Of a stretch of DNA of 53,628 nucleotides, positions 3,296-17,061 are shown piece after piece; position 1 is the first letter of the stretch; each line of letters starts with the position of its first letter. Under the pieces are notes generated by a model, which had not been told where the DNA came from, made no database searches, and saw only the letters and a list, made by a program, of their open reading frames with translations. The stretch comes from Intestinibacillus massiliensis (GTDB lineage Bacteria; Bacillota; Clostridia; Oscillospirales; Butyricicoccaceae), in the NCBI RefSeq assembly GCF_900155735.1, contig NZ_LT707059.1, positions 1 through 53,628 of the forward strand, written 5' to 3'. The position numbers were made by a program, and so were the translations under genes.

Positions 3296-5533
3296 ATGAA
3301 ACTGCTTCATATGATGGGCGGCGGCGACGTCGGCGGCGCCAAAACCCATATCATGTCTATTATAACCGCCCTGCGCGGCCGGGGGCACGAGGTGCACCTG
3401 GTCTCGTTCCGGGACGGCCCGTTCCCGCAGGAGGCGGCGGCGCGCGGCGTGCCGGTCACGGTGATCGAGCACATGAGCCCGTTCAAGTGCCGCCGCGAGC
3501 TGCTGCGCGTGGTCGACGCGTTCCAGCCGGACGTGATCCATTGCCACGGCGCGAAGGCCAACCTCATGGGGGCGATGGCGCGCGCCAAGCGCCAGATCCC
3601 GGTCATGACGACCGTGCACTCGGATTACCGGCTCGATTACCTCGGGTCGCCGTTCAAGCAGATGACGCGCGGCACGCTCAATGCGGTGGCGCTGCGTTTC
3701 CTGGATTTTTACCAGCCCGTGGCCGACCGGATGGCGCGCACGCTGATTGCGCGCGGCTTTGACCCGGAGCGCATGGTGACGATTTATAACGGCATGGATT
3801 TCGACGGCTCGGTCGAAGGGCTGGACCGCGCCGCCTATATCCGTGAAAAGTGGGGTGTGGAAATCGGGCCGGGCGACGTGCTCTGCGGCATCGCCGCGCG
3901 CCTGACCGCGGTGAAGGATATCGCGACCACGGTGCGCGCCTTCGCGAAGGCGCTGCAGGAAGCGCCGCAGCTCCGCCTGTTTATCGCGGGCGACGGCGAG
4001 GACGAGGACATGCTGCGCAAGCTTGCCAAGCAGCTCGGCGCGGACAGCCGCATCACCTTCTGCGGGTGGGTGACCGACGTGCCGCAGTATTTTGCGTGCA
4101 TGGATATCAACCTCCTGTCGTCGCTATCGGAAACCTTCCCGTACTCCATCCTGGAGGGCGTGCGGGAGCACTGCGCGACGATCTGCTCGGACGTCGGCGG
4201 CATGCCCGACCTGATCGACGCGGGCGAAAACGGCTTCATCTTCCAGCCGGGCGACGACGGCGCGCTCGCAAAATATATGGCGCGCCTGGCAAACGACCCG
4301 GAAATGCGCCGCCGCTTTGCCGGGCTGCTCTACGAAAAGGCGTCGCGCGAATTTTCGCTGCAGACCATGTGCGACACGCAGATCCACAATTATGAGCGTG
4401 TGCTCGAGTTGTTCCACCAGCCCAAGGCTCGCCGCGCCGGCGTGGTCATCTGCGGCGCGTATGGCAAGGGCAACGCGGGCGACGACGCGATCCTCAAAGC
4501 CATCGTGCAGGAGGTGCGCGAGATCGACCCGACGCGGCCGATCTGGGTCATGTCCCGCCGCCCGAAGGAGACGCGCGTCGTCTACCGTACCAACGCCATG
4601 TATACCTTTAATGTGCCCGCGGTGCTGCACCGTTTCCGTCGCTCGGCGCTCTATATCAACGGCGGCGGCAGCCTGATGCAGGACGTGACCTCGACCCGTT
4701 CGCTGCACTATTACCTGTACACCCTGCGTGCGGCCAAGTCCATGGGCTGCCGCGTCATGATGTACGGCTGCGGCATCGGCCCGATCAACCGCCCCGCAAA
4801 CCGCCGCGCGGCGGCCAAGGCGATCAACCGCGCGGTTGACCTGATCACGCTGCGCGACGACCTTTCGCGCGGCGAGCTGACGCGCATGGGCATCACGCGG
4901 CCGGACATCCGCCTGTCGGCGGACCCGACCATTATCCTGGAGCCCACGCCCCGCGAGACCGTCGACCTGACGCTCGAGGCGCTCGGCATCCCGCCGGAAG
5001 GGCGCTACATCGGCTTCGGCCTGCGCAACTGGAAGGGGCTGGACGGCGTGCTCGGCGAAATTGCCGAGGCCGCCGATTACGCCTACGAAAAGCATGGCCT
5101 GATCCCGCTTTTCGTGCCGATCGAGTTCCCGAGCGACCTTTACCCCGCCCAGCGCGTGGCCGAAAAGCTGCACTGCCCGCACTACACGATTGATACGCGC
5201 CAGCCCATCGAGATGACGATCGGCATCCTGTCGCGGATGCAGGCCGTGGTCGGCATCCGCCTGCATTCGCTGATGTTCTCCGCGGGGCACGGCGTGCCGG
5301 TCATCGGTATGTCGTACGATATCAAGGTGGACGGGTTCCTGAAATACATCGGCAGCCGCACCTGCATCCAGCTGACCGATGTGACCGCGGAGGCGATGAA
5401 GCCGCTGATCGACGAGTGCGTTTCGGGCGCGCTCGATGCCGAGGTGCAGCGCATGGCGGTGCTGCTGCGCCAGCGGGAGCATGAGAATACGGCGGGCGCG
5501 AAGCGGCTGCTCGATCTCGGCACCGTGAAGTAA
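3296..5533 (+). CDS. csaB: Fused GT4 glycosyltransferase - polysaccharide pyruvyl transferase (CsaB)
   Basis: 745 residues. Residues 1 to about 370 are a GT-B fold, family 4 glycosyltransferase: N-terminal MMGGGDVGGAKTHI loop, PDVIHCHG, and the C-terminal sugar-nucleotide site with FIAGDGED and SLSETFPYSILEG. Residues about 380-745 are CsaB, which adds pyruvate ketals to secondary cell-wall polymer so that SLH-domain surface proteins can bind: GAYGKGNAGDDAIL opens the domain, then YINGGGSLMQD, YGCGIGPI, and the C-terminal GIRLHSLMFSAGHG. CsaB alone is about 360 residues, so this is a true two-domain fusion without an internal frameshift. The start has a GGGAGGG site. It is followed 24 bases later by another glycosyltransferase, suggesting a small wall-polymer operon. 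Confidence 0.9.
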   Translation: MKLLHMMGGGDVGGAKTHIMSIITALRGRGHEVHLVSFRDGPFPQEAAARGVPVTVIEHMSPFKCRRELLRVVDAFQPDVIHCHGAKANLMGAMARAKRQIPVMTTVHSDYRLDYLGSPFKQMTRGTLNAVALRFLDFYQPVADRMARTLIARGFDPERMVTIYNGMDFDGSVEGLDRAAYIREKWGVEIGPGDVLCGIAARLTAVKDIATTVRAFAKALQEAPQLRLFIAGDGEDEDMLRKLAKQLGADSRITFCGWVTDVPQYFACMDINLLSSLSETFPYSILEGVREHCATICSDVGGMPDLIDAGENGFIFQPGDDGALAKYMARLANDPEMRRRFAGLLYEKASREFSLQTMCDTQIHNYERVLELFHQPKARRAGVVICGAYGKGNAGDDAILKAIVQEVREIDPTRPIWVMSRRPKETRVVYRTNAMYTFNVPAVLHRFRRSALYINGGGSLMQDVTSTRSLHYYLYTLRAAKSMGCRVMMYGCGIGPINRPANRRAAAKAINRAVDLITLRDDLSRGELTRMGITRPDIRLSADPTIILEPTPRETVDLTLEALGIPPEGRYIGFGLRNWKGLDGVLGEIAEAADYAYEKHGLIPLFVPIEFPSDLYPAQRVAEKLHCPHYTIDTRQPIEMTIGILSRMQAVVGIRLHSLMFSAGHGVPVIGMSYDIKVDGFLKYIGSRTCIQLTDVTAEAMKPLIDECVSGALDAEVQRMAVLLRQREHENTAGAKRLLDLGTVK

Positions 5534-7681: not shown

Positions 7682-8392
7682 ATGGAGAAGAAAGAACAGC
7701 TTTATGAAGGCAAGGCCAAGAAGGTATTCGCGACCGACGACCCGGCGCTCGTGATCGTCGATTACAAGGACGACGCGACCGCATTCAACGGCCAGAAAAA
7801 GGGACAGATCGCGGGCAAGGGCGTTATCAACAACGTCATGTCCAACCACATGTTCCAGCTGCTGGAGAAGCAGGGCGTGCCGACCCACTTTGTCGAGCAG
7901 CTCTCCGAGCGCGAGACCGTGGTCAAGAAGGTGCAGATCGTACCGCTCGAGGTCATCATCCGCAACATTTCCGCCGGCTCCTTTGCCAAGCGCTACGGCG
8001 TAGAGGAAGGCATCGTGTTCGACACGCCGACCATCGAGTTTTCCTATAAGGACGACGACCTGGGCGACCCGCTGATTAACGACTATCATGCGCTCGCGCT
8101 GAAGCTCGCCACCCAGGAGGAGATCGACCTGATCAAGTCCATGGCGTTCAAGGTCAACGAGGTCATGAAGGCCTATTTCGACTCCCTCAACGTGATCCTG
8201 GTCGATTTCAAGCTGGAGTTCGGCAAGACTGCGGACGGCAAGATCGTCCTGGCGGATGAAATCTCCCCGGATACCTGCCGCCTGTGGGACAAGGATACCA
8301 AGGAGAAGCTGGATAAGGACCGTTTCCGTCGCGATATGGGCGGCGTAGAGGACGCTTACCAGGAAATTATGCGCCGCCTGATGGGCAACTAA
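7682..8392 (+). CDS. purC: SAICAR synthetase (PurC)
   Basis: 236 residues, typical for bacterial PurC. Joins aspartate to CAIR with ATP in IMP synthesis. Visible motifs: the N-terminal LYEGKAKKV signature, the [13 protein letters not shown] phosphate/substrate loop, and the C-terminal [14 protein letters not shown] segment. Start ATG at 7682 with a GGAGA site. Follows purE by 64 bases and precedes a hairpin before purF. Confidence 0.96.
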
Positions 8393-8489: not shown

Positions 8490-9959
8490 ATGAAATATCG
8501 TATCAAGAAATCCCCGCGTACCCCCTGGGACGCGGATGCCATCCATGAGGAATGCGGCGTTTTCGGCATTTCCCTCCCTGCCGGCTCGGAAGCCAGCCCC
8601 GCGCACGAGGCGTACGTCGCCCTGTTCGCCCTGCAGCACCGCGGCCAGGAGGCCGCCGGCATCGCGGTGAATAACAAGGGCGTGATCCACTGCCATAAGG
8701 ACGTCGGCCTGGTAAACGACGTGTTTAACCAGGAGACGCTGGACGCCATGCCGGGGCAGATGGCGGTCGGCCATGTCCGCTACTCGACAACCGGCAAGCA
8801 GAGCCGCGAAAACGCGCAGCCCATTGCGATCACCCACGTCAAGGGCAACCTGGCGGTGGCGCATAACGGCAACCTGGTCAACGCAGGCGAGCTGCGCCGC
8901 GAAATTGAGCTTGGAGGCGGCATTTTCCGTTCTTCGAACGATTCCGAGGTGCTCGTCTACACCATCGTGCGCGAACGCCTCAAGGTCGGCTCGATCGAGG
9001 AGGCGGTCGTGAACACCATGAAGGTGATCAAGGGGGCGTACTCCCTTGTCATCATGTCGCCCCGCAAGCTGCTCGCCGCGCGCGACCCGCACGGCTTCCG
9101 CCCGCTCTGCATCGGCAAATCGCCGGAGGGCGCCTATATTTTCGCATCCGAGACCTGCGCGCTCGACGCGCTCGGCGCGGCGTTTGTCCGCGACGTGGAA
9201 CCCGGCGAGGTCTGCGTGGTCGAGGACGGCAAGCTCAAGAGCCTGCACTGCGGCGTCGAGGCAAAGACCTCGGCCTGCGTATTCGAGTATATCTATTTCG
9301 CCCGCCCGGATTCGGTGATCGACGGCGCGAGCGTAGAGCTGGCGCGGCAGGAGGCGGGAAAGTACCTTTCCATCGAGCACCCGGTCGGCGCGGACGTCGT
9401 CATCGGCGTGCCGGATTCCGGCATCCCGGCGGCCATCGGCTACGCCAAGTGTTCGGGCATCCCATATGGCGTCGGCCTGATCAAAAACCGGTATATCGGC
9501 CGCACCTTCATCCAGCCCGGGCAGGAAAAGCGCGAACGCTCGGTGCGCCTCAAGCTCAACGCGCTGCGCGAGGCGGTCGCGGGCAAGCGCGTCATCATGG
9601 TGGACGACTCCATCGTACGCGGCACGACCTGCGCGCGCCTGGTTAAGCTCATCCGCGACGCGGGCGCGAAGGAAGTGCATATGCGTATTTCCGCGCCCCC
9701 CTTCCGGCACCCGTGCTTCTTTGGCACCGATATCCCCGAGCGCACGCAGCTCCTCGCGCACGGGCGGACGGTGGAGGAAATGCGCCAGATCATCGGCGTG
9801 GACAGCCTCGGCTTCCTGTCGCTCGAGGCGGCGCACAAGATCGCGCTGGGCGCGAAGGTCGGCTTCTGCGACGCATGTTTTTCCGGGAAATACCCGGTGG
9901 ACGTGCCCGAGCAGGCTGAAAAAAACATGTTTGAAAGTGAATTGCCCAGCCAGGGCTGA
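8490..9959 (+). CDS. purF: Amidophosphoribosyltransferase (PurF)
   Basis: 489 residues; commits PRPP and glutamine to purine synthesis. N-terminal nucleophile class II amidotransferase: Cys22 in EECGVFGI follows a 21-residue propeptide of the kind removed in the Bacillus-type enzyme, and ALQHRGQEAAGI follows. The PRPP-binding motif VIMVDDSIVRGTTC is near residues 367-380. Cysteines in CVFEYIYF, HPCFFG and CDACF match the four ligands of the [4Fe-4S] cluster of Bacillus-type PurF. It is immediately followed by a second, unusual PurF-like protein. Confidence 0.96.
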   Translation: MKYRIKKSPRTPWDADAIHEECGVFGISLPAGSEASPAHEAYVALFALQHRGQEAAGIAVNNKGVIHCHKDVGLVNDVFNQETLDAMPGQMAVGHVRYSTTGKQSRENAQPIAITHVKGNLAVAHNGNLVNAGELRREIELGGGIFRSSNDSEVLVYTIVRERLKVGSIEEAVVNTMKVIKGAYSLVIMSPRKLLAARDPHGFRPLCIGKSPEGAYIFASETCALDALGAAFVRDVEPGEVCVVEDGKLKSLHCGVEAKTSACVFEYIYFARPDSVIDGASVELARQEAGKYLSIEHPVGADVVIGVPDSGIPAAIGYAKCSGIPYGVGLIKNRYIGRTFIQPGQEKRERSVRLKLNALREAVAGKRVIMVDDSIVRGTTCARLVKLIRDAGAKEVHMRISAPPFRHPCFFGTDIPERTQLLAHGRTVEEMRQIIGVDSLGFLSLEAAHKIALGAKVGFCDACFSGKYPVDVPEQAEKNMFESELPSQG

Positions 9960-10000
9960 CCTGCCGGGCGGCACAAGTAAAAATTGGATAAGGAGAACTT

Positions 10001-11425
10001 ATGGGAGGATTTTTCGGCGTAGCCTCGCAACGGGACTGCGTGCTGGATATTTTCTTCGGCGTGGACTATCACTCGCACCTCGGCACGCGCCGCGGCGGTA
10101 TGCTCATGTACGACCGGGAGCACGGCTTCCAGCGTCAGATTCACAACATTGAAAACACCCCGTTCCGCACCAAGTTTGAAAAGGACTTGCCGGAATTCCA
10201 GGGATGCAGCGGCATCGGCTGCATCAGCGATACCGACCCGCAGCCGCTGCTCGTGCGCTCGCACCTGGGGCTGTACGCGCTGACGACGATCGGGATCATC
10301 AACAATGCGGAGGAGCTGGTCGGCCGGTATTTTTCCGACCATGGGCACCAGTTTATGGCCATGGGTTCGGGGAAGGTCAACCAGACCGAGCTCGTCGCCG
10401 CGCTCATCAACCAGAAGGACGACCTCGTTTCCGGCATCCTGCACGCGCAGGAGATGATCGACGGGTCGATGACCGTGCTGGTGCTGACGCAGGACGGCAT
10501 CATCGCTGCGCGCGACCGCCTTGGCCGCCTGCCGGTGCTGATCGGCAAAAGCGAGGACGGGTACTGCGTCTCATTCGAGTCCTTCGCCTACCGCAAGCTG
10601 GGGTACGAGGACGCGTACGAGCTTGGCCCGCGCGAGATCGTCAAGATGACGGCGGAGGGGTTTGAGACGCTGTCGCCCGCGGGCAAGGAGATGAAAATCT
10701 GCGCTTTCCTGTGGACGTATTACGGCTACCCGAACTCCAATTACGAGGGCGTCAACGTCGAGCTGATGCGATACCGCAACGGCCAGATCCTGGCGCGGGA
10801 GGACAAGGCGCGCGGCTTTGACAGCGAGCGGCTGGACTATATCGCGGGCGTGCCGGATTCCGGCGTGCCGCACGCGATCGGCTATGCCAACGCGGGCACC
10901 GTCCCGTTTGCCCGCCCGTTCATCAAATACACCCCGACCTGGCCGCGCTCCTTCATGCCGACGAACCAGAAGATCCGCAACGAGGTCGCCAAAATGAAGC
11001 AGATCCCCGTCCCCGAGCTGATCGAAGGCAAAAAGCTGCTGTTTGTGGACGATTCGATCGTCCGCGGCACGCAGCTCCACGAAACGGTCGACTTCCTGTA
11101 TGAGTCGGGCGCGGAGGAGGTCCATATGCGTTCGGCCTGCCCGCCGATCATGTACGGCTGCAAGTACTTAAATTTCTCCTCGAGCAATTCCGACATGGAG
11201 CTGCTCGCGCGCCGCACCGTGCAGGAGCTGGAGGGCGACGAGGGGCAGGAGCACCTGGACGAATATGCGGACGCGAACACCGAGCGCGGCCAGTGCATGC
11301 TCAAGACGATCTGCGAAAAGTTCGGCTTCAGCTCGCTCGGCTACCAGTCGCTGAACGGCCTGCTTGAGGCGATCGGCATGGACCGCGACAAGGTGTGCAC
11401 CTACTGCTGGAACGGCAAGGGCTGA
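10001..11425 (+). CDS. PurF-like paralogue lacking the catalytic N-terminal Cys
   Basis: 474 residues with the PurF architecture: an Ntn-type glutaminase domain (GIGCISDTDPQPLLV, SGKVNQTELVA) and a phosphoribosyltransferase domain with an intact PRPP loop LLFVDDSIVRGTQL near 346-359. The N-terminus reads MGGFFGVAS where active enzymes read MCG.FG, so the nucleophilic Cys is Gly and there is no propeptide. A CTYC pair near the C-terminus and other cysteines could be remnants of an iron-sulfur site. ATG 10001 has an AAGGAG site and no upstream start supplies a Cys. Databases usually call such proteins amidophosphoribosyltransferase; glutamine-dependent activity is doubtful. Its place between purF and purM points to a purine-linked role, perhaps ammonia-dependent or regulatory. 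Confidence 0.8.
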   Translation: MGGFFGVASQRDCVLDIFFGVDYHSHLGTRRGGMLMYDREHGFQRQIHNIENTPFRTKFEKDLPEFQGCSGIGCISDTDPQPLLVRSHLGLYALTTIGIINNAEELVGRYFSDHGHQFMAMGSGKVNQTELVAALINQKDDLVSGILHAQEMIDGSMTVLVLTQDGIIAARDRLGRLPVLIGKSEDGYCVSFESFAYRKLGYEDAYELGPREIVKMTAEGFETLSPAGKEMKICAFLWTYYGYPNSNYEGVNVELMRYRNGQILAREDKARGFDSERLDYIAGVPDSGVPHAIGYANAGTVPFARPFIKYTPTWPRSFMPTNQKIRNEVAKMKQIPVPELIEGKKLLFVDDSIVRGTQLHETVDFLYESGAEEVHMRSACPPIMYGCKYLNFSSSNSDMELLARRTVQELEGDEGQEHLDEYADANTERGQCMLKTICEKFGFSSLGYQSLNGLLEAIGMDRDKVCTYCWNGKG

Positions 11426-11541
11426 CCACCGCACGGCAGCTTCCCGATACGCATCCCACGCTGCGGGCTTTGCCCGCCTGATATAAACGCGGCCAGCCCC
11501 CTTGTGGGCAGCCGGATCCTTAGAAAGTGAGAGTTATAACT

Positions 11542-12579
11542 ATGAATGAAAGCCGTTCTGAAAGCTACAAGGCGGCAGGCGTAGACGTCACCGCCGGTTA
11601 CGAAGCCGTCAAGCTGATGAAGCCGATGGTCGAAAGCACCTTTACCAAGGGCGTAATGGGTACGCTCGGCGGCTTCGGCGGCCTGTTCCGTCCGGACTTC
11701 AAGGGCATGGAAGACCCCATCCTCGTGTCCGGCACCGACGGCGTGGGCACGAAGCTCAAGCTGGCGTTCCTAATGAACAAGCACGACACGGTCGGTATCG
11801 ACTGCGTGGCGATGTGCGTCAACGATATCGCCTGCTGCGGCGCGCAGCCGCTGTTCTTCCTCGACTATATTGCGGTCGGCAAGAACCACCCGGAAAAGGT
11901 CGCGTCCATGGTCGCGGGCATCGCGGAGGGCTGCCGCCAGGCGGGCTGCGCGCTGATCGGCGGCGAGACCGCGGAAATGCCGGGCTTTTACCCGGAGGAT
12001 GAGTACGATATGGCCGGTTTCTCCGTCGGCATCGTGGACAAGGCCAAGATGATCGACGCTTCCCGCCTCGCGGCGGACGACGTGCTGATCGGCGTCGCGT
12101 CCTCCGGCGTGCATTCCAACGGCTATTCCCTGGTGCGCAAGACGCTGGGCATCAACGAAAAGTCGGTCAAGCGCTATATCGACGAGTTCGGCAAGACGCT
12201 GGGCGAAGAGCTGCTGACCCCGACCAAGATTTACGTCAAGGCGATCCAGCATGTCGCGGCAAAGGCCGACGTCAAGGCGATCAGCCATATCACGGGCGGC
12301 GGCTTTTATGAAAACGTGCCGCGCATGCTGTGCGACGGCCTGCGCGCGGACATCGAAAAGGCCGCGATGCCGGTGCCGCCGATCTTCGGCCTCATCCAGC
12401 AGACCGGCAAAATCCCGGAGCGCGACATGTACAATACCTTCAACATGGGCGCGGGCCTCGTCATGGCGGTCGCGAAGGACGACGCGGACAAGGCGCTCGC
12501 GGCGATTGCGGAAGCGGGCGAAAAGGGCTATGTGATCGGCGCCTGCGTCGCAGGCGATAAGGGCGTAGAGCTGCGCTAA
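11542..12579 (+). CDS. purM: AIR synthetase, phosphoribosylformylglycinamidine cyclo-ligase (PurM)
   Basis: 345 residues, standard PurM length. ATP-dependent ring closure of FGAM to AIR. Motifs: [16 protein letters not shown] at the N-terminus, [10 protein letters not shown], the [15 protein letters not shown] loop, [29 protein letters not shown] and [13 protein letters not shown]. The ATG at 11542 is taken rather than an upstream GTG at 11527 because the homologous N-terminus starts there, though its ribosome site is weak. A small GCGGGC/GCCCGC hairpin lies in the gap before it (11463-11477). Confidence 0.95.
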
Positions 12580-12630: not shown

Positions 12631-13290
12631 ATGGTTAAAATTGCAGTCCTGGTTTCCGGCGGCGGCACCAATTTGCAGGCGCTGATTGACGCGGAAGCCG
12701 CGGGCAACATCAAAAACGGCGAAATTTGCGCCGTCGTCGCGTCCCGCCCCGACGCTTACGCGATCACGCGCGCGAAGCAGGCATTTATCCCCACATATGT
12801 GATGCGCCGCCGCGATTACGGCTCGGCGGAGGCGTACGGCGAGGCGCTCGGCGACCTGCTGGAACAGCTCGGCATCGGGCTGGTCGTGCTGGCGGGCTTT
12901 ATGACCGTCCTGTCGGACGCGTTCTGCCGCCGGTTCCAGAACCGCATCATCAACGTGCACCCGTCCCTGATCCCGTCCTTCTGCGGCGAGGGCTTCTACG
13001 GCCTGCGCGTGCATGAGGCGGCGCTGCAAAAAGGCGTCAAGGTGACCGGCGCAACCGTCCATTTCGTATCAGAGGTCGTGGACGGCGGCGAAATCATCGC
13101 ACAAAAGGCGGTCGCGGTGCAGCCGGGCGACACCCCAGAGGTTTTGCAGAAGCGCGTCATGCGCGAGGCGGAATGGGTGCTGCTGCCGCGGGCGGTCTCG
13201 CAGTTCTGCGAAGGCCGCATCACGGTGCAGGACGGCGTGGTCTATATCGCCGCTGCCGACGACGACGAAAACGAAGGAGAGAACCGATGA
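12631..13290 (+). CDS. purN: GAR transformylase, 10-formyl-THF dependent (PurN)
   Basis: 219 residues. Transfers formyl from 10-formyltetrahydrofolate to GAR. The PRPP-side loop VSGGGTNLQAL opens the protein; INVHPSLIPSF carries the catalytic Asn and His, and EVVDGGEII carries the catalytic Asp. The C-terminus has an acidic tail (AADDDENEGENR). Its TGA overlaps the ATG of the next gene in an ATGA, so translation of the IMP cyclohydrolase is coupled to it. Confidence 0.94.
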   Translation: MVKIAVLVSGGGTNLQALIDAEAAGNIKNGEICAVVASRPDAYAITRAKQAFIPTYVMRRRDYGSAEAYGEALGDLLEQLGIGLVVLAGFMTVLSDAFCRRFQNRIINVHPSLIPSFCGEGFYGLRVHEAALQKGVKVTGATVHFVSEVVDGGEIIAQKAVAVQPGDTPEVLQKRVMREAEWVLLPRAVSQFCEGRITVQDGVVYIAAADDDENEGENR

Positions 13291-13991
13291 AGATTTTAGA
13301 TATTACGGAAGAGCTGCGCGGCAACGCCTATCCCGGCCGGGGCATCGTGCTTGGCCGCACGGCGGACGACCGGTATGCGGTCGCCGCGTACTTCATTATG
13401 GGGCGTTCGGAAAACAGCCGCAACCGCATCTTCTCCGATACGGAGGACGGCATCCGCACCGAGGCGTTCGACCCCTCCAAGATGGTCGACCCGTCGCTCA
13501 TCATTTACCATCCGGTGCGCCTTTACGACGGCCGCCTGATCGTGACGAACGGCGACCAGACCGATACGGTCTGGGAGGGGATGAAGGCGGGCAAGGCGCC
13601 GGAAGAGGCGCTGCGCACGCGCGAGTTTGAGCCGGACGGCCCGAACTACACCCCCCGCATTTCCGGCGTGCTGGAAAAGGACGGCAGCTACCAGCTTTCC
13701 ATCCTCAAGAGCTTCGACGGCGACCCGTCCTGCTGCAAGCGCTTCTTCTTCGAGTACGACAAGCCGGTCGCGGGGCTTGGCCACTTTATCCACACCTACA
13801 TGGGAGACGGCGACCCGCTGCCGTCCTTCGAGGGCGAACCCAAGACCGTGCGCATCGAGGGCGATGTAAGCACGTTTGCACGCAGCCTGTGGGACAGCCT
13901 GAATGCGGACAATAAGGTTTCGCTCTATGTGTGCTATACCGAGCTTGCCACGGGCAGGCAGTCCAGGGTCGTCTGGAACAAGAACCACTAA
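13287..13991 (+). CDS. purO: IMP cyclohydrolase of the PurO/archaeal type
   Basis: 234 residues of the IMP_cyclohyd family (Pfam PF07826), first known from archaeal PurO: closes the ring of FAICAR to give IMP. Diagnostic stretches are YPGRGIVLGRT, AYFIMGRSENSRNR and the later DGPNYTPRISGV. In most bacteria this step is done by the N-terminal domain of bifunctional PurH; here the next gene lacks that domain, so PurO and that gene together replace PurH. Start overlaps the purN stop. Confidence 0.88.
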   Translation: MKILDITEELRGNAYPGRGIVLGRTADDRYAVAAYFIMGRSENSRNRIFSDTEDGIRTEAFDPSKMVDPSLIIYHPVRLYDGRLIVTNGDQTDTVWEGMKAGKAPEEALRTREFEPDGPNYTPRISGVLEKDGSYQLSILKSFDGDPSCCKRFFFEYDKPVAGLGHFIHTYMGDGDPLPSFEGEPKTVRIEGDVSTFARSLWDSLNADNKVSLYVCYTELATGRQSRVVWNKNH

Positions 13992-14010
13992 CGCCGAAAG
14001 GAGCCTTGTC

Positions 14011-15186
14011 ATGCAGGAATTAGAGTTAAAATACGGCTGTAACCCGAACCAGAAGCCCGCGCGCATTTTTATGAGCGAAGGCGAGCTGCCGATCGAAGTG
14101 CTGAACGGCCGTCCGGGCTACATCAACTTCTGCGACGCGTTTAACGCGTGGCAGCTTGTCAAAGCCCTGAAGAAGGCGACCGGCCTGCCGGCCGCAGCCT
14201 CCTTCAAGCATGTGTCCCCCGCGGGCGCGGCGCTGGGCAAGCCGCTGACCGATACGGAAAAGCAGATTTATTTCGTCGAGGACGGCCGCGAACTGTCGCC
14301 GATCGCCTGCGCGTATATCCGCGCGCGCGGCGCCGACCGCCTGTGCTCTTACGGCGACTGGGCGGCGCTTTCGGACGAGTGCGACGCGGATACCGCAAGA
14401 TACCTCGCGAGCGAGGTGTCCGACGGCATTATCGCCCCCTCCTACTCGGCGGAGGCGCTCGAAATCCTCAAAACAAAGCGCAAGGGCGGCTATAACGTCG
14501 TCAAGATCGACCCGGGCTATACCCCGAAGCCGATCGAGCAGCGCGACATTTTCGGCGTGACCTTCGAGCAGGGCTACAACGATTACGAGATTTCCGAAAG
14601 CCTGCTGCACAATATCGTGACCGAAAACAAGGAACTGCCCGAGGCCGCGCGCCACGATATGATCCTGGCGCTCATCACGCTCAAGTACACGCAGTCCAAC
14701 TCGGTCTGCTATGTCAAGGACGGCCAGACGATCGGCGTCGGCGCAGGCCAGCAGAGCCGTATCCACTGCACCCGCCTCGCGGGGCAGAAGGCGGACGGCT
14801 GGTTCCTGCGGCAGCATCCCAAGGTCCTGGCGCTGCAGTTTAAGGACGGCATCCGCCGCCCCGACCGCGACAACGCGATCGACGTCTACATCTCCGACGA
14901 GTACGAGGACGTGCTGGCCGAGGGCGTTTGGCAGAATACCTTCAAGGCCAAGCCGCCCGTGCTGACGCGCGAGGAGCGCCTCGACTGGATCAAGAAAAAC
15001 ACGGGCGTGACCGTCGGTTCGGATGCGTTTTTCCCGTTCGGCGACAATGTCGAGCGCGCGCGCAAGTCCGGCGTGCAGTACATCGTACAGCCGGGCGGAT
15101 CCATCCGCGACGACAACGTCATTGAAACGGCAAACAAGTACGGCATTGTAATGGCGTTTACCGGCATGCGCCTGTTCCACCATTGA
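14011..15186 (+). CDS. purH: Stand-alone AICAR transformylase (C-terminal half of PurH)
   Basis: 391 residues against about 510 for bifunctional PurH. It starts (ATG 14011, AAAGGAG site) directly in the transformylase domain: LKYGCNPNQKPA, SFKHVSPAGAA (catalytic Lys-His pair in the KH motif), YTQSNSVCYVKDGQTIGVGAGQQSRIHC, and near the end GSDAFFPFGDN and YIVQPGGSIRDD. The MGS-like IMP cyclohydrolase domain is absent, matching the PurO gene just upstream. Formylates AICAR using 10-formyl-THF. Confidence 0.93.
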   Translation: MQELELKYGCNPNQKPARIFMSEGELPIEVLNGRPGYINFCDAFNAWQLVKALKKATGLPAAASFKHVSPAGAALGKPLTDTEKQIYFVEDGRELSPIACAYIRARGADRLCSYGDWAALSDECDADTARYLASEVSDGIIAPSYSAEALEILKTKRKGGYNVVKIDPGYTPKPIEQRDIFGVTFEQGYNDYEISESLLHNIVTENKELPEAARHDMILALITLKYTQSNSVCYVKDGQTIGVGAGQQSRIHCTRLAGQKADGWFLRQHPKVLALQFKDGIRRPDRDNAIDVYISDEYEDVLAEGVWQNTFKAKPPVLTREERLDWIKKNTGVTVGSDAFFPFGDNVERARKSGVQYIVQPGGSIRDDNVIETANKYGIVMAFTGMRLFHH

Positions 15187-15214: not shown

Positions 15215-15787
15215 ATGAAACAGGACAGGAAAGGTTCAGCCCGCGTGGGCAGGGCGATCCTGCTTCTGCTGGCCGGCACGCTGGTGCCCCTGGCGGGCAG
15301 CGCGCTGTCCTCGCTGTTTGCGCCCGCGGCCATCGGCGCGGTCTCGCTCGCGGGATACCTGCTGACGATCGCGGGCAGCGCGCTGCTGCTGCCGGACAGC
15401 CGGTGGTTTGCGGTGTCCATCATGTGCGCGATGTTCGGCGTGGTGGCGGACGGGCTGCCGCTGCTGTATGACGGCGTGTCGGGCATGATGCTCTATGTGC
15501 TGACCGCGCTGGCGATGGCGCTGTGCTACGCCGCGGTGTACGGCGGCGTGGACGGGCTGCTGGCAATGGCTGGCGCATCCGCCGGGGAGCGCCGGCTGGG
15601 GCTGTGGTGGATCGCCTGCTTTGCGGCGGGGGAAACGCTGATGTTCGTATGCCTCTATGTCCTGCCGCGCATGCCGTCTTCCGTCATGGCGCAGATGCTG
15701 GGCACAGTGGCCGCTTTTGCCTGCACGGTGTGCGCGCTCATCTATCAGGTGCGTTATCTGCTGATGGCGCGCAGGCGTTTGGGCTGA
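15215..15787 (+). CDS. Small integral membrane protein within the purine operon
   Basis: 190 residues with about five hydrophobic segments (roughly 14-35, 38-58, 65-85, 90-110, 128-150, 160-180) and positively charged ends. I do not recognise the family. It sits 28 bases after purH and 23 bases before purD in the same direction and so is very likely cotranscribed. A transport role for a purine-related compound is possible but nothing in the sequence shows it. Confidence 0.7.
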   Translation: MKQDRKGSARVGRAILLLLAGTLVPLAGSALSSLFAPAAIGAVSLAGYLLTIAGSALLLPDSRWFAVSIMCAMFGVVADGLPLLYDGVSGMMLYVLTALAMALCYAAVYGGVDGLLAMAGASAGERRLGLWWIACFAAGETLMFVCLYVLPRMPSSVMAQMLGTVAAFACTVCALIYQVRYLLMARRRLG

Positions 15788-15810
15788 AACGTAAGGAAGA
15801 GGGAATCGAA

Positions 15811-17061
15811 ATGAAAGTATTGGTAATCGGCGGCGGCGGGCGTGAACACGCGATCTGCCACACGCTGAAGAAGAGTCCCAAGGTGGACAAGCTGTGGTGC
15901 GCGCCGGGTAACGGCGGCATCGCGCAGGCCGCGGAGTGCGTCCCGATCAAGGCGACCGATATCGACGGCGTCCTGGCGTTCTGCCGCGAAAACGCGCCCG
16001 ACCTTGTCATGGTCGCGCCGGACGACCCGCTCGCGCTCGGCATGGTCGACGCGCTGGAGGAGGCGGGCTTCCGCGCCTTTGGCCCGCGCAAAAACGCGGC
16101 CGTAATTGAAGGCTCCAAATCCTTTGCCAAGGATTTGATGCAAAAATACAACATCCCGACAGCCGGGTATGCGGTGTTTGAAAGCTCCGACGAGGCGGTG
16201 GCCTATATCCGGGAGCAGGGCGCGCCGATCGTCGTCAAGGCGGACGGCCTGGCGCTCGGCAAGGGCGTGACCGTGGCCATGACCGTGGACGAGGCGGTCG
16301 CCGCGGTGCGCGACGCGATCGACGGCGGCGCGTTCGGCGGCGCGGGCGCGCGCGTGGTCATTGAGGAATACCTGACCGGCCCGGAGGTTTCGGTGCTCGC
16401 GTTCGTGGACGGCAAGACGCTCAAGACGATGCCGTCCGCGCAGGATCATAAGCGCGCCTACGACCACGACGAAGGCCCGAACACGGGCGGCATGGGCGCG
16501 TTTTCGCCTTCCCGTTTTTACACGGAAGAAATTGCGCAGCAGTGCATGGAGACGATCTTCAAGCCGACGGTCGCGGCCATGGCGCAGGAAGGCCGCCCCT
16601 TTAAGGGCGTGCTGTACTTCGGCCTGATGTTGACGCCCAAGGGTCCCCGCGTCATCGAATACAACGCGCGCTTCGGCGACCCGGAGACCCAGGCGGTGCT
16701 GTGCCGCCTCGAGACCGACCTGTTCGATATCTTTAACGCGGTCATCGACGGAAAGCTCGACGAGATCGAGGTCAAGTGGGCGGATAACGCGGCCTGCTGC
16801 GTGGTCATGGCGTCCGGCGGCTATCCCAAGGCCTATGAAAAGGGCAAGGAGATCACCGGGCTGGACACGGTGCAGGATGCGATCGTCTTCCATGCGGGTA
16901 CCGCCGCGCAGGGCGGCAAGCTCGTGACGGACGGCGGCCGCGTGCTCGGCGTGACGGCGACCGCGCCCACGCTGGACGAGGCGATCCGCAAGGCGTATGC
17001 CGACGTGCGGAAAATCCATTTCGACCAGGCGCATTTCCGCACCGACATCGGGGTAAAATAA
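15811..17061 (+). CDS. purD: GAR synthetase, phosphoribosylamine-glycine ligase (PurD)
   Basis: 416 residues, normal length, ATP-grasp enzyme joining phosphoribosylamine to glycine. Motifs: VLVIGGGGREHAI, PGNGG, VKADGLALGKGV, the EEYLTGPEVSVLAF strand, DHKRAYDHDEGPNTGGMGAFSPS and YNARFGDPETQAVL. ATG at 15811 has an AGAGGGAA site; a longer in-frame opening upstream overlaps the membrane protein gene and was rejected. PurD uses the unstable product of PurF, so their shared operon makes sense. Confidence 0.95.
   Translation: MKVLVIGGGGREHAICHTLKKSPKVDKLWCAPGNGGIAQAAECVPIKATDIDGVLAFCRENAPDLVMVAPDDPLALGMVDALEEAGFRAFGPRKNAAVIEGSKSFAKDLMQKYNIPTAGYAVFESSDEAVAYIREQGAPIVVKADGLALGKGVTVAMTVDEAVAAVRDAIDGGAFGGAGARVVIEEYLTGPEVSVLAFVDGKTLKTMPSAQDHKRAYDHDEGPNTGGMGAFSPSRFYTEEIAQQCMETIFKPTVAAMAQEGRPFKGVLYFGLMLTPKGPRVIEYNARFGDPETQAVLCRLETDLFDIFNAVIDGKLDEIEVKWADNAACCVVMASGGYPKAYEKGKEITGLDTVQDAIVFHAGTAAQGGKLVTDGGRVLGVTATAPTLDEAIRKAYADVRKIHFDQAHFRTDIGVK

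Follow-up and report, generated by a model that had tools for sequence, protein, structure and literature searches.

The opening reaction of purine synthesis is usually presented as glutamine-dependent. The purine operon of Intestinibacillus massiliensis raises a question about this step, as a normal purF is followed there by a second PurF-like gene whose product lacks the catalytic cysteine. What could such a protein do, and from where would it take its nitrogen? Here, the name PurF-G, coined in the present analysis, is used for this cysteine-less PurF-like family. It is proposed that PurF-G probably makes phosphoribosylamine from PRPP and ammonia and can replace PurF, while in the operon described below it is kept beside PurF.

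A Purine Operon with Two PurF-Like Genes

The DNA analyzed, called the window from here on, is a stretch of 53,628 nucleotides from I. massiliensis (assembly GCF_900155735.1, contig NZ_LT707059.1, positions 1 to 53,628, forward strand). Its purine genes, and the parts of PurF-G to which the text refers, are the following:

7682-8392, + strand: purC (SAICAR synthetase), by domain match
8490-9959, + strand: canonical purF with the cysteine nucleophile and the glutamine-site residues, by TIGR01134 (532 bits) and alignment
9990-9995, + strand: ribosome-binding-like AAGGAG ahead of the PurF-G ATG, by reading of the sequence
10001-11425, + strand: PurF-G, PurF-like, with a probably dead glutaminase domain; proposed ammonia-dependent phosphoribosylamine synthase
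10001-10693, + strand: class-II glutamine-amidotransferase-like (Ntn fold) domain of PurF-G, residues 1-231, boundary approximate
10694-11422, + strand: type I phosphoribosyltransferase-like domain of PurF-G, residues 232-474, boundary approximate, by a PF00156 match below cut-off, alignment and model
11045-11071, + strand: PRPP loop VDDSIVRGT, PurF-G residues 349-357, by sequence and alignment
11396-11407, + strand: C466-x-x-C469 of PurF-G (CTYC), by alignment
11527-12579, + strand: purM, by domain match
12631-13290, + strand: purN, formyltransferase domain PF00551, by domain match
13173-13991, + strand: IMP cyclohydrolase (PF07826), longest ORF, by domain match
13903-15186, + strand: AICAR formyltransferase part of purH (PF01808), by domain match
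15523-17061, + strand: purD, longest ORF, by domain match

The longest ORF of the IMP cyclohydrolase overlaps purN, and the purD domain starts near residue 97 of its longest ORF; thus, both real starts are probably located later. The PF07826 and PF01808 proteins are encoded by separate, adjoining genes, without a fused purH, and PF07826 is presumably the PurO-type family, which was first recognized in archaea. Apart from one tRNA in the window, no RNA element, purine riboswitches included, was found at the gathering threshold in the window or in eight loci. Elsewhere in the window, a single ORF of 745 aa (3296-5533) fuses a glycosyltransferase region and a polysaccharide pyruvyl transferase region. 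A DUF6017 protein (1680-2843, - strand) and an incomplete match to a type IV secretion coupling protein (PF02534; 122-850, - strand) point to a mobile element, or to what is left of one, at the left end.

PurF-G is encoded by an intact ORF of 474 aa with an ATG start, and its N-terminus reads MGGFFG. The original observation of a preliminary description, namely a second PurF-like protein of the operon without the catalytic cysteine, is confirmed: glycine occupies the cysteine position, the gene lies directly 3′ of the normal purF, and purM is next downstream. PurF-G shares 28% identity with the adjoining canonical PurF (117/411 columns) and scores 173.4 bits on the TIGR01134 equivalog model, against a cut-off of 350 and the 532 bits of its neighbor. 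Among proteins of solved structure, chains of B. subtilis PurF are closest to it in sequence.

A missed upstream start that supplies a cysteine is rejected, because an in-frame stop lies four codons 5′ of the ATG and no cysteine codon is found in between. A decayed purF copy is rejected as well. By NG86, with dS at 0.5-1.3, 10 pairs from 5 loci give a dN/dS of 0.03-0.14 for PurF-G and of 0.02-0.16 for the canonical purF beside it. Thus, purifying selection acts on PurF-G about as strongly as on canonical purF, and many residues of PurF-G are strictly conserved, as described next.

Loss of the Glutamine Site

Whole-genome and collection searches provided 125 distinct PurF-G sequences, which were aligned with 24 canonical rows, among them E. 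coli PurF and a sequence nearly identical to the canonical PurF of the window; a further sequence (L135) lacks the anchor motif used by the script and was left out. The nucleophile position holds glycine in 117/125 and serine in the other 8. Cysteine, whose presence there in close relatives would have spoken against the observation, occurs in 0/125, versus 24/24 canonical rows. Similar MGGFFG proteins probably occur in Bacteroidota. In the record titled Evtepia gabavorous KLE1738 (L074), PurF-G starts with MGGFCG, the sole cysteine at residue 5 among the 125, and this cysteine is not N-terminal.

The loss is not confined to the nucleophile. The glutamine-binding roles of Arg73, Asn101, and Asp127 come from work on E. 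coli PurF, and these residues, together with Cys1 and Gly102, are kept in 24/24 canonical rows. By contrast, Arg73 and Tyr74 are deleted in 125/125 PurF-G sequences, the Asn101 column holds Val, Ile, or Thr in all of them, and Asp127 is lost in 124, the remaining sequence having an Asp in the column; Arg73, Asn101, and Asp127 are all missing from the window protein. With both Cys1 and the glutamine-site residues lost, it is very unlikely, judging from the alignment, that the N-terminal domain of PurF-G works as a PurF-type glutaminase. The serine found in eight sequences could in principle act as an N-terminal nucleophile; these eight also lack Arg73 and Asn101.

At the same time, the N-terminal domain is conserved in a manner of its own. 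It keeps 23 of the 57 canonical-invariant positions at 90% or more, while the stretch HSHLGT (residues 24-29: H24, S25, H26, L27, G28, T29), which aligns with the canonical LQHRGQ stretch, is invariant in 125/125, and C74 is present in 116/125. The domain might free ammonia from another donor, by new chemistry that involves H24, S25, T29, or C74, and it is the invariance of H24-T29 and the frequency of C74 that invite this reading. Nevertheless, C74 is replaced by Ser, Val, or Ile in the other nine sequences, and a stretch aligned with LQHRGQ may only reshape the domain interface, so that new chemistry at this site is considered quite unlikely. In the preferred reading, with free ammonia as the donor, the N-terminal domain would neither bind nor split glutamine and would be kept, in its remodeled form, as a structural or ammonia-handling part.

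The Phosphoribosyltransferase Domain and the Predicted Fold

The PRPP loop, described earlier as intact in the window protein, is kept at 98-100% per position across the family. The same holds for K326, R332, F334, R342, and K349, which, like the loop itself (D366-T373), are given here in E. coli numbering. Overall, of the 55 positions in the C-terminal domain that are invariant in the canonical rows, 28 reach a conservation of at least 90%. Other invariants are altered (R261 to Y, N327 to T, Y329 to T, and D408 to F), and the flexible-loop region is rewritten, reading KYTPTWPRSF in PurF-G and KNRYIGRTF in the neighboring PurF. Because of these changes, the substrate or product of PurF-G could differ from that of PurF, a point that is taken up below.

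The cysteines C234 and C387 are present in 125/125 sequences, and C466 and C469 of the C-terminal CxxC in 124/125, with one gap. All four match the cysteines common to Fe-S type PurF and are presumably Fe-S ligands, as in B. subtilis PurF.

An AlphaFold2 model of PurF-G, built from a 67-row alignment, has a mean pLDDT of 88.8 and a pTM of 0.88, and is least confident at residues 312-318, in the flexible-loop region. Superposed on B. subtilis PurF (1ao0), it gives a Z of 38.2 and an rmsd of 2.7 over 426 residues; the alignment spans model residues 2-474, with model residue 2 opposite chain residue 1. Z values are 36-39 against the PurF chains of eight entries, with 424-429 residues aligned, and Foldseek matches the model to PurF with an E of 2.5e-35. 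As modeled, PurF-G is a complete two-domain PurF fold, with an Ntn glutamine amidotransferase domain followed by a type I phosphoribosyltransferase domain.

Gene Order and Family History

Of the 80 named loci, 58 have purM at most 600 bases 3′ of PurF-G and no adjoining canonical purF; the next purine match upstream is purC in 33 of these 58, and in three of them (L047, L087, and L094), with under 900 upstream bases, the upstream gene is not settled. Canonical purF is found upstream of PurF-G in 3/80 loci and downstream in 3/80. In a further 15/80, 10 of them with Coriobacteriia names in their titles, purM is not the next match, and 1/80 is too short.

This gene order bears on another possible source of ammonia. 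PurF-G could make phosphoribosylamine with ammonia from a separate glutaminase docked on its N-terminal domain, and so be fed by glutamine in trans. Such a role would fit the retention of a dead N-terminal domain, and the strictly conserved H24, S25, L27, and T29 could form a surface for docking or transfer; but with purM so close downstream in the 58 loci, little room is left there for a partner gene. Glutamine supply in trans is thus regarded as unlikely, and the direct use of free ammonia is preferred.

In a tree of 95 PurF rows, 70 PurF-G rows form one side of a branch, with 25 canonical rows on the other and an SH-aLRT of 100. This tree is a quick one, with SH-aLRT as its sole support and long branches flagged, and its split leaves unsettled whether PurF-G arose within or outside canonical PurF. 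Along with the many strictly conserved residues, the branch supports, at the level of sequence, the earlier suggestion that PurF-G is a distinct conserved family and not a decayed copy.

Genomes with PurF-G and without Canonical PurF

Among 40 relatives, the window's own genome included, 20 carry PurF-G. Half of these carriers, the window genome among them, also have canonical PurF, and the other 10 do not (G002, G003, G004, G007, G014, G016, G017, G021, G035, and G038); purD and purM exceed their cut-offs in 10/10 of the latter. The non-carriers comprise 16 genomes with canonical PurF only, 2 with fragments (G024, G028), and 2 with neither protein (G020, G037). Beyond the relatives, canonical PurF is missing from 17 of 31 genomes reached via the named loci, which were hand-chosen from the 80 and whose assemblies come without stated completeness. 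Among the 17 are the genomes whose records bear the titles Evtepia gabavorous KLE1738 and Adlercreutzia equolifaciens DFI.6.87 (L053). These 31 genomes and 9 preselected as PurF-G-only made up a 40-genome test set. In the 26 PurF-G-only genomes that include the 9 preselected ones, purD is present in 25 and a PurL match in 25, of which 24 are over the cut-off.

The picture is different in a phylum-wide sample of 398 genomes with a completeness of at least 90%. PurF-G is present in 28 of them (E below 1e-200; next best 4e-67), and 26 of these carriers, G000 and G036 included, keep canonical PurF over the cut-off; the two exceptions are G430 and G376. Thus, genomes close to the window's own group often show replacement of PurF, while it is rare in the rest of the phylum and cannot be taken as the rule beyond the wider group of the window.

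A missing gene may reflect a missing piece of assembly. Incomplete assemblies can hide a canonical PurF, and G007 and G035 are 84-85% complete, so dropout may lie behind single PurF-G-only cases. As a general cause, dropout is rejected, because PurF-G takes the position of purF, two genera show the PurF-G-only state in both of the members sampled (G004/G017 and G003/G016), and the profile of PurF-G, with which canonical PurF is also detected, matches all but 12 of the 398 genomes in the phylum sample. In a control genome, Bacteroides ihuae, TIGR01134 matched with an E of 0.001 and not at 1e-40, and purD was matched; this genome may have a divergent PurF, or none, or one that the assembly lacks.

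One locus seems to preserve a trace of the loss. In L005, from a genome that is 90% complete (G014), an intact PurF-G is followed by a broken remnant of canonical purF (L005:2500-3107), with in-frame stops and its middle missing, and a search of that genome found no other canonical PurF. This is consistent with the loss of PurF where PurF-G is present. On the quick tree, the PurF-G-only state requires 15 changes, at least 9 of them forced by supported branches.

These distributions bear on the roles suggested in the preliminary description, of which the synthesis of phosphoribosylamine from ammonia is favored and a role solely as a modulator of PurF is disfavored. In favor of a non-catalytic role, as regulator or partner of canonical PurF, it could be said that both genes adjoin in the window and in 6/80 named loci, and that both proteins are found in 10/20 carriers among the relatives and 26/28 in the phylum sample. 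Nevertheless, many genomes with PurF-G and other purine genes have no canonical PurF to regulate, and a PRPP loop kept at 98-100% per position would not be expected of such a protein; hence, this role is highly improbable.

The remaining suggestion was a different PRPP reaction. Phosphoribosylamine would then arise in another way, for example from ribose 5-phosphate and ammonia non-enzymatically or by a side activity of TrpD, and the available text of a study in Salmonella does describe PurF-independent routes to it (PMC3485032). The rewritten flexible loop would suit a changed reaction, and so would G376 (L156, L119; 92% complete), the sole exception among the 26 PurF-G-only genomes, which has PurF-G and no purD or PurL match; G376 may be either an incomplete assembly or a case of another PurF-G role. 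However, according to the same text, these routes feed thiamine, for which under 10 nM is needed, and strains without PurF require added purines (PMC3485032). PurF-independent formation leaves unexplained why a conserved gene occupies the position of purF in purine operons, and a different reaction is, in our judgment, very unlikely.

Proposed Function

The reading preferred here is supported by the lost nucleophile and glutamine site, the retained PRPP loop and predicted fold, the place in the operon, the carriers without PurF, and purifying selection. The phosphoribosyltransferase domain of PurF-G would stay active and bind PRPP under its flexible loop, the nitrogen would come from free ammonia instead of glutamine, and the product, 5-phosphoribosylamine, would pass to PurD. 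PurF-G would thereby stand in for glutamine-dependent PurF, which it has probably replaced in several gut lineages. In operons such as that of the window, where both genes are kept, we infer that one product is reached by two routes, one from glutamine and one from ammonia. As PurF-G is the sole copy in many gut-bacterial genomes, purine synthesis there probably begins with free ammonia.

If this is true, gut bacteria have shed the need for glutamine at the committed step of purine synthesis, which would be predicted to be insensitive to glutamine analogues. Moreover, the annotation of a protein as PurF could mask a different nitrogen source. Nothing usable on the purine need of the isolates was found in the open-access literature searched.

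CarB without CarA beside Early-Branching PurF-G

A more distant PurF-G, with 53-58% identity, is found in 20 genomes from the phylum-wide sample. It branches early, in several lines, and sits away from purC and purM. At five loci from four of these genomes (L142-L145, L147), it lies about 30-95 bases 3′ of a complete carB without carA. G232 has two PurF-G copies (L142, L144), each behind its own CarA-less carB, and a carB with carA is present there too.

A tree of 36 CarB proteins contains a separate clade of 20, here CarB2, with a support of 100/100 (L142-L145, L147; L162-L167; L178, L180-L182, L186, L188-L191). In the upstream flanks examined, of 453-5,365 bases, no carA was found beside CarB2 in 20/20, while carA is beside 14/16 other CarB rows, E. 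coli included. CarB2 scores range from 1316 to 1366 bits, against at least 1385 for the rest; this range was set after the scores had been seen, and all 20 proteins within it then fell in the one clade.

Among 55 genomes, hand-picked from the same families where possible, CarB2 occurs in 17/20 with distant PurF-G, 0/8 with PurF-G of the main clade, and 2/27 without PurF-G (Fisher p about 6e-8 for 17/20 versus 2/27, from counts that ignore shared ancestry). These counts leave out G011, G023, and G035, which also branch early in the PurF tree. Distant PurF-G is found without CarB2 in G060, G294, and G376, and CarB2 without PurF-G in G305 and G380. According to the accessible part of PMC6022934, an ATP-grasp enzyme may receive ammonia from outside or from a glutaminase domain, and CarB2 is possibly an ammonia-dependent carbamoyl phosphate synthase.

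These observations lead to a broader, tentative view, which we hold to be slightly more doubtful than probable. PurF-G would be a naturally occurring way to start purine synthesis without glutamine, and would have displaced PurF repeatedly in Bacillota and Coriobacteriia of the gut; its early-branching members would belong, together with CarB2, to an ammonia-fed module, with which both purine and carbamoyl phosphate could be made from free ammonia.

Comparison with Known Systems

Canonical PurF (TIGR01134; 1ao0 and 1gph from B. subtilis, 1ecb from E. coli) resembles PurF-G in its full-length two-domain fold, its PRPP loop, and its position in the purine operon, and Fe-S type PurF also in its four cysteines. 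PurF-G differs from canonical PurF in its low identity to its neighbor, its sub-cut-off TIGR01134 score, the loss of Cys1, Arg73, Asn101, and Asp127, its rewritten flexible loop, and an insertion of about 27 residues before the C-terminal region.

A works-like analogy is provided by mammalian carbamoyl phosphate synthetase I, an enzyme unrelated to PurF-G that has lost its glutaminase cysteine. In the accessible part of PMC6022934, it is described as the ammonia-only form of a usually glutamine-using enzyme. E. coli PurF proteins with Cys1 replaced by Ala or Ser, as summarized in the available portion of PMC3261824, lose glutamine use and keep ammonia use; they are laboratory mutants and not a natural family.

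No account of a bacterial cysteine-less PurF family was found in the open-access literature searched, and the part of a review at hand (PMC10912719) treats PurF and how it is controlled, with no mention of a variant of this kind. The sole comparable protein found there is PurF′ of Crenarchaeota, a PurF paralogue without the N-terminal cysteine that is encoded near other purine genes, and for which ammonia-dependent activity is one possibility offered by its authors, as far as the available text of their study goes (PMC3261824). The likeness of PurF-G to PurF′ is drawn here from the published description of PurF′. In the Crenarchaeota genomes of that text, PurF′ accompanies one PurF per genome (PMC3261824), whereas PurF-G is often the sole copy; in this respect, the bacterial family goes further than PurF′, and the suggestion made for the archaeal protein becomes testable in cultured bacteria. 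PurF-G lies within the fold and the pathway of PurF, and PurF′ is the closest published idea.
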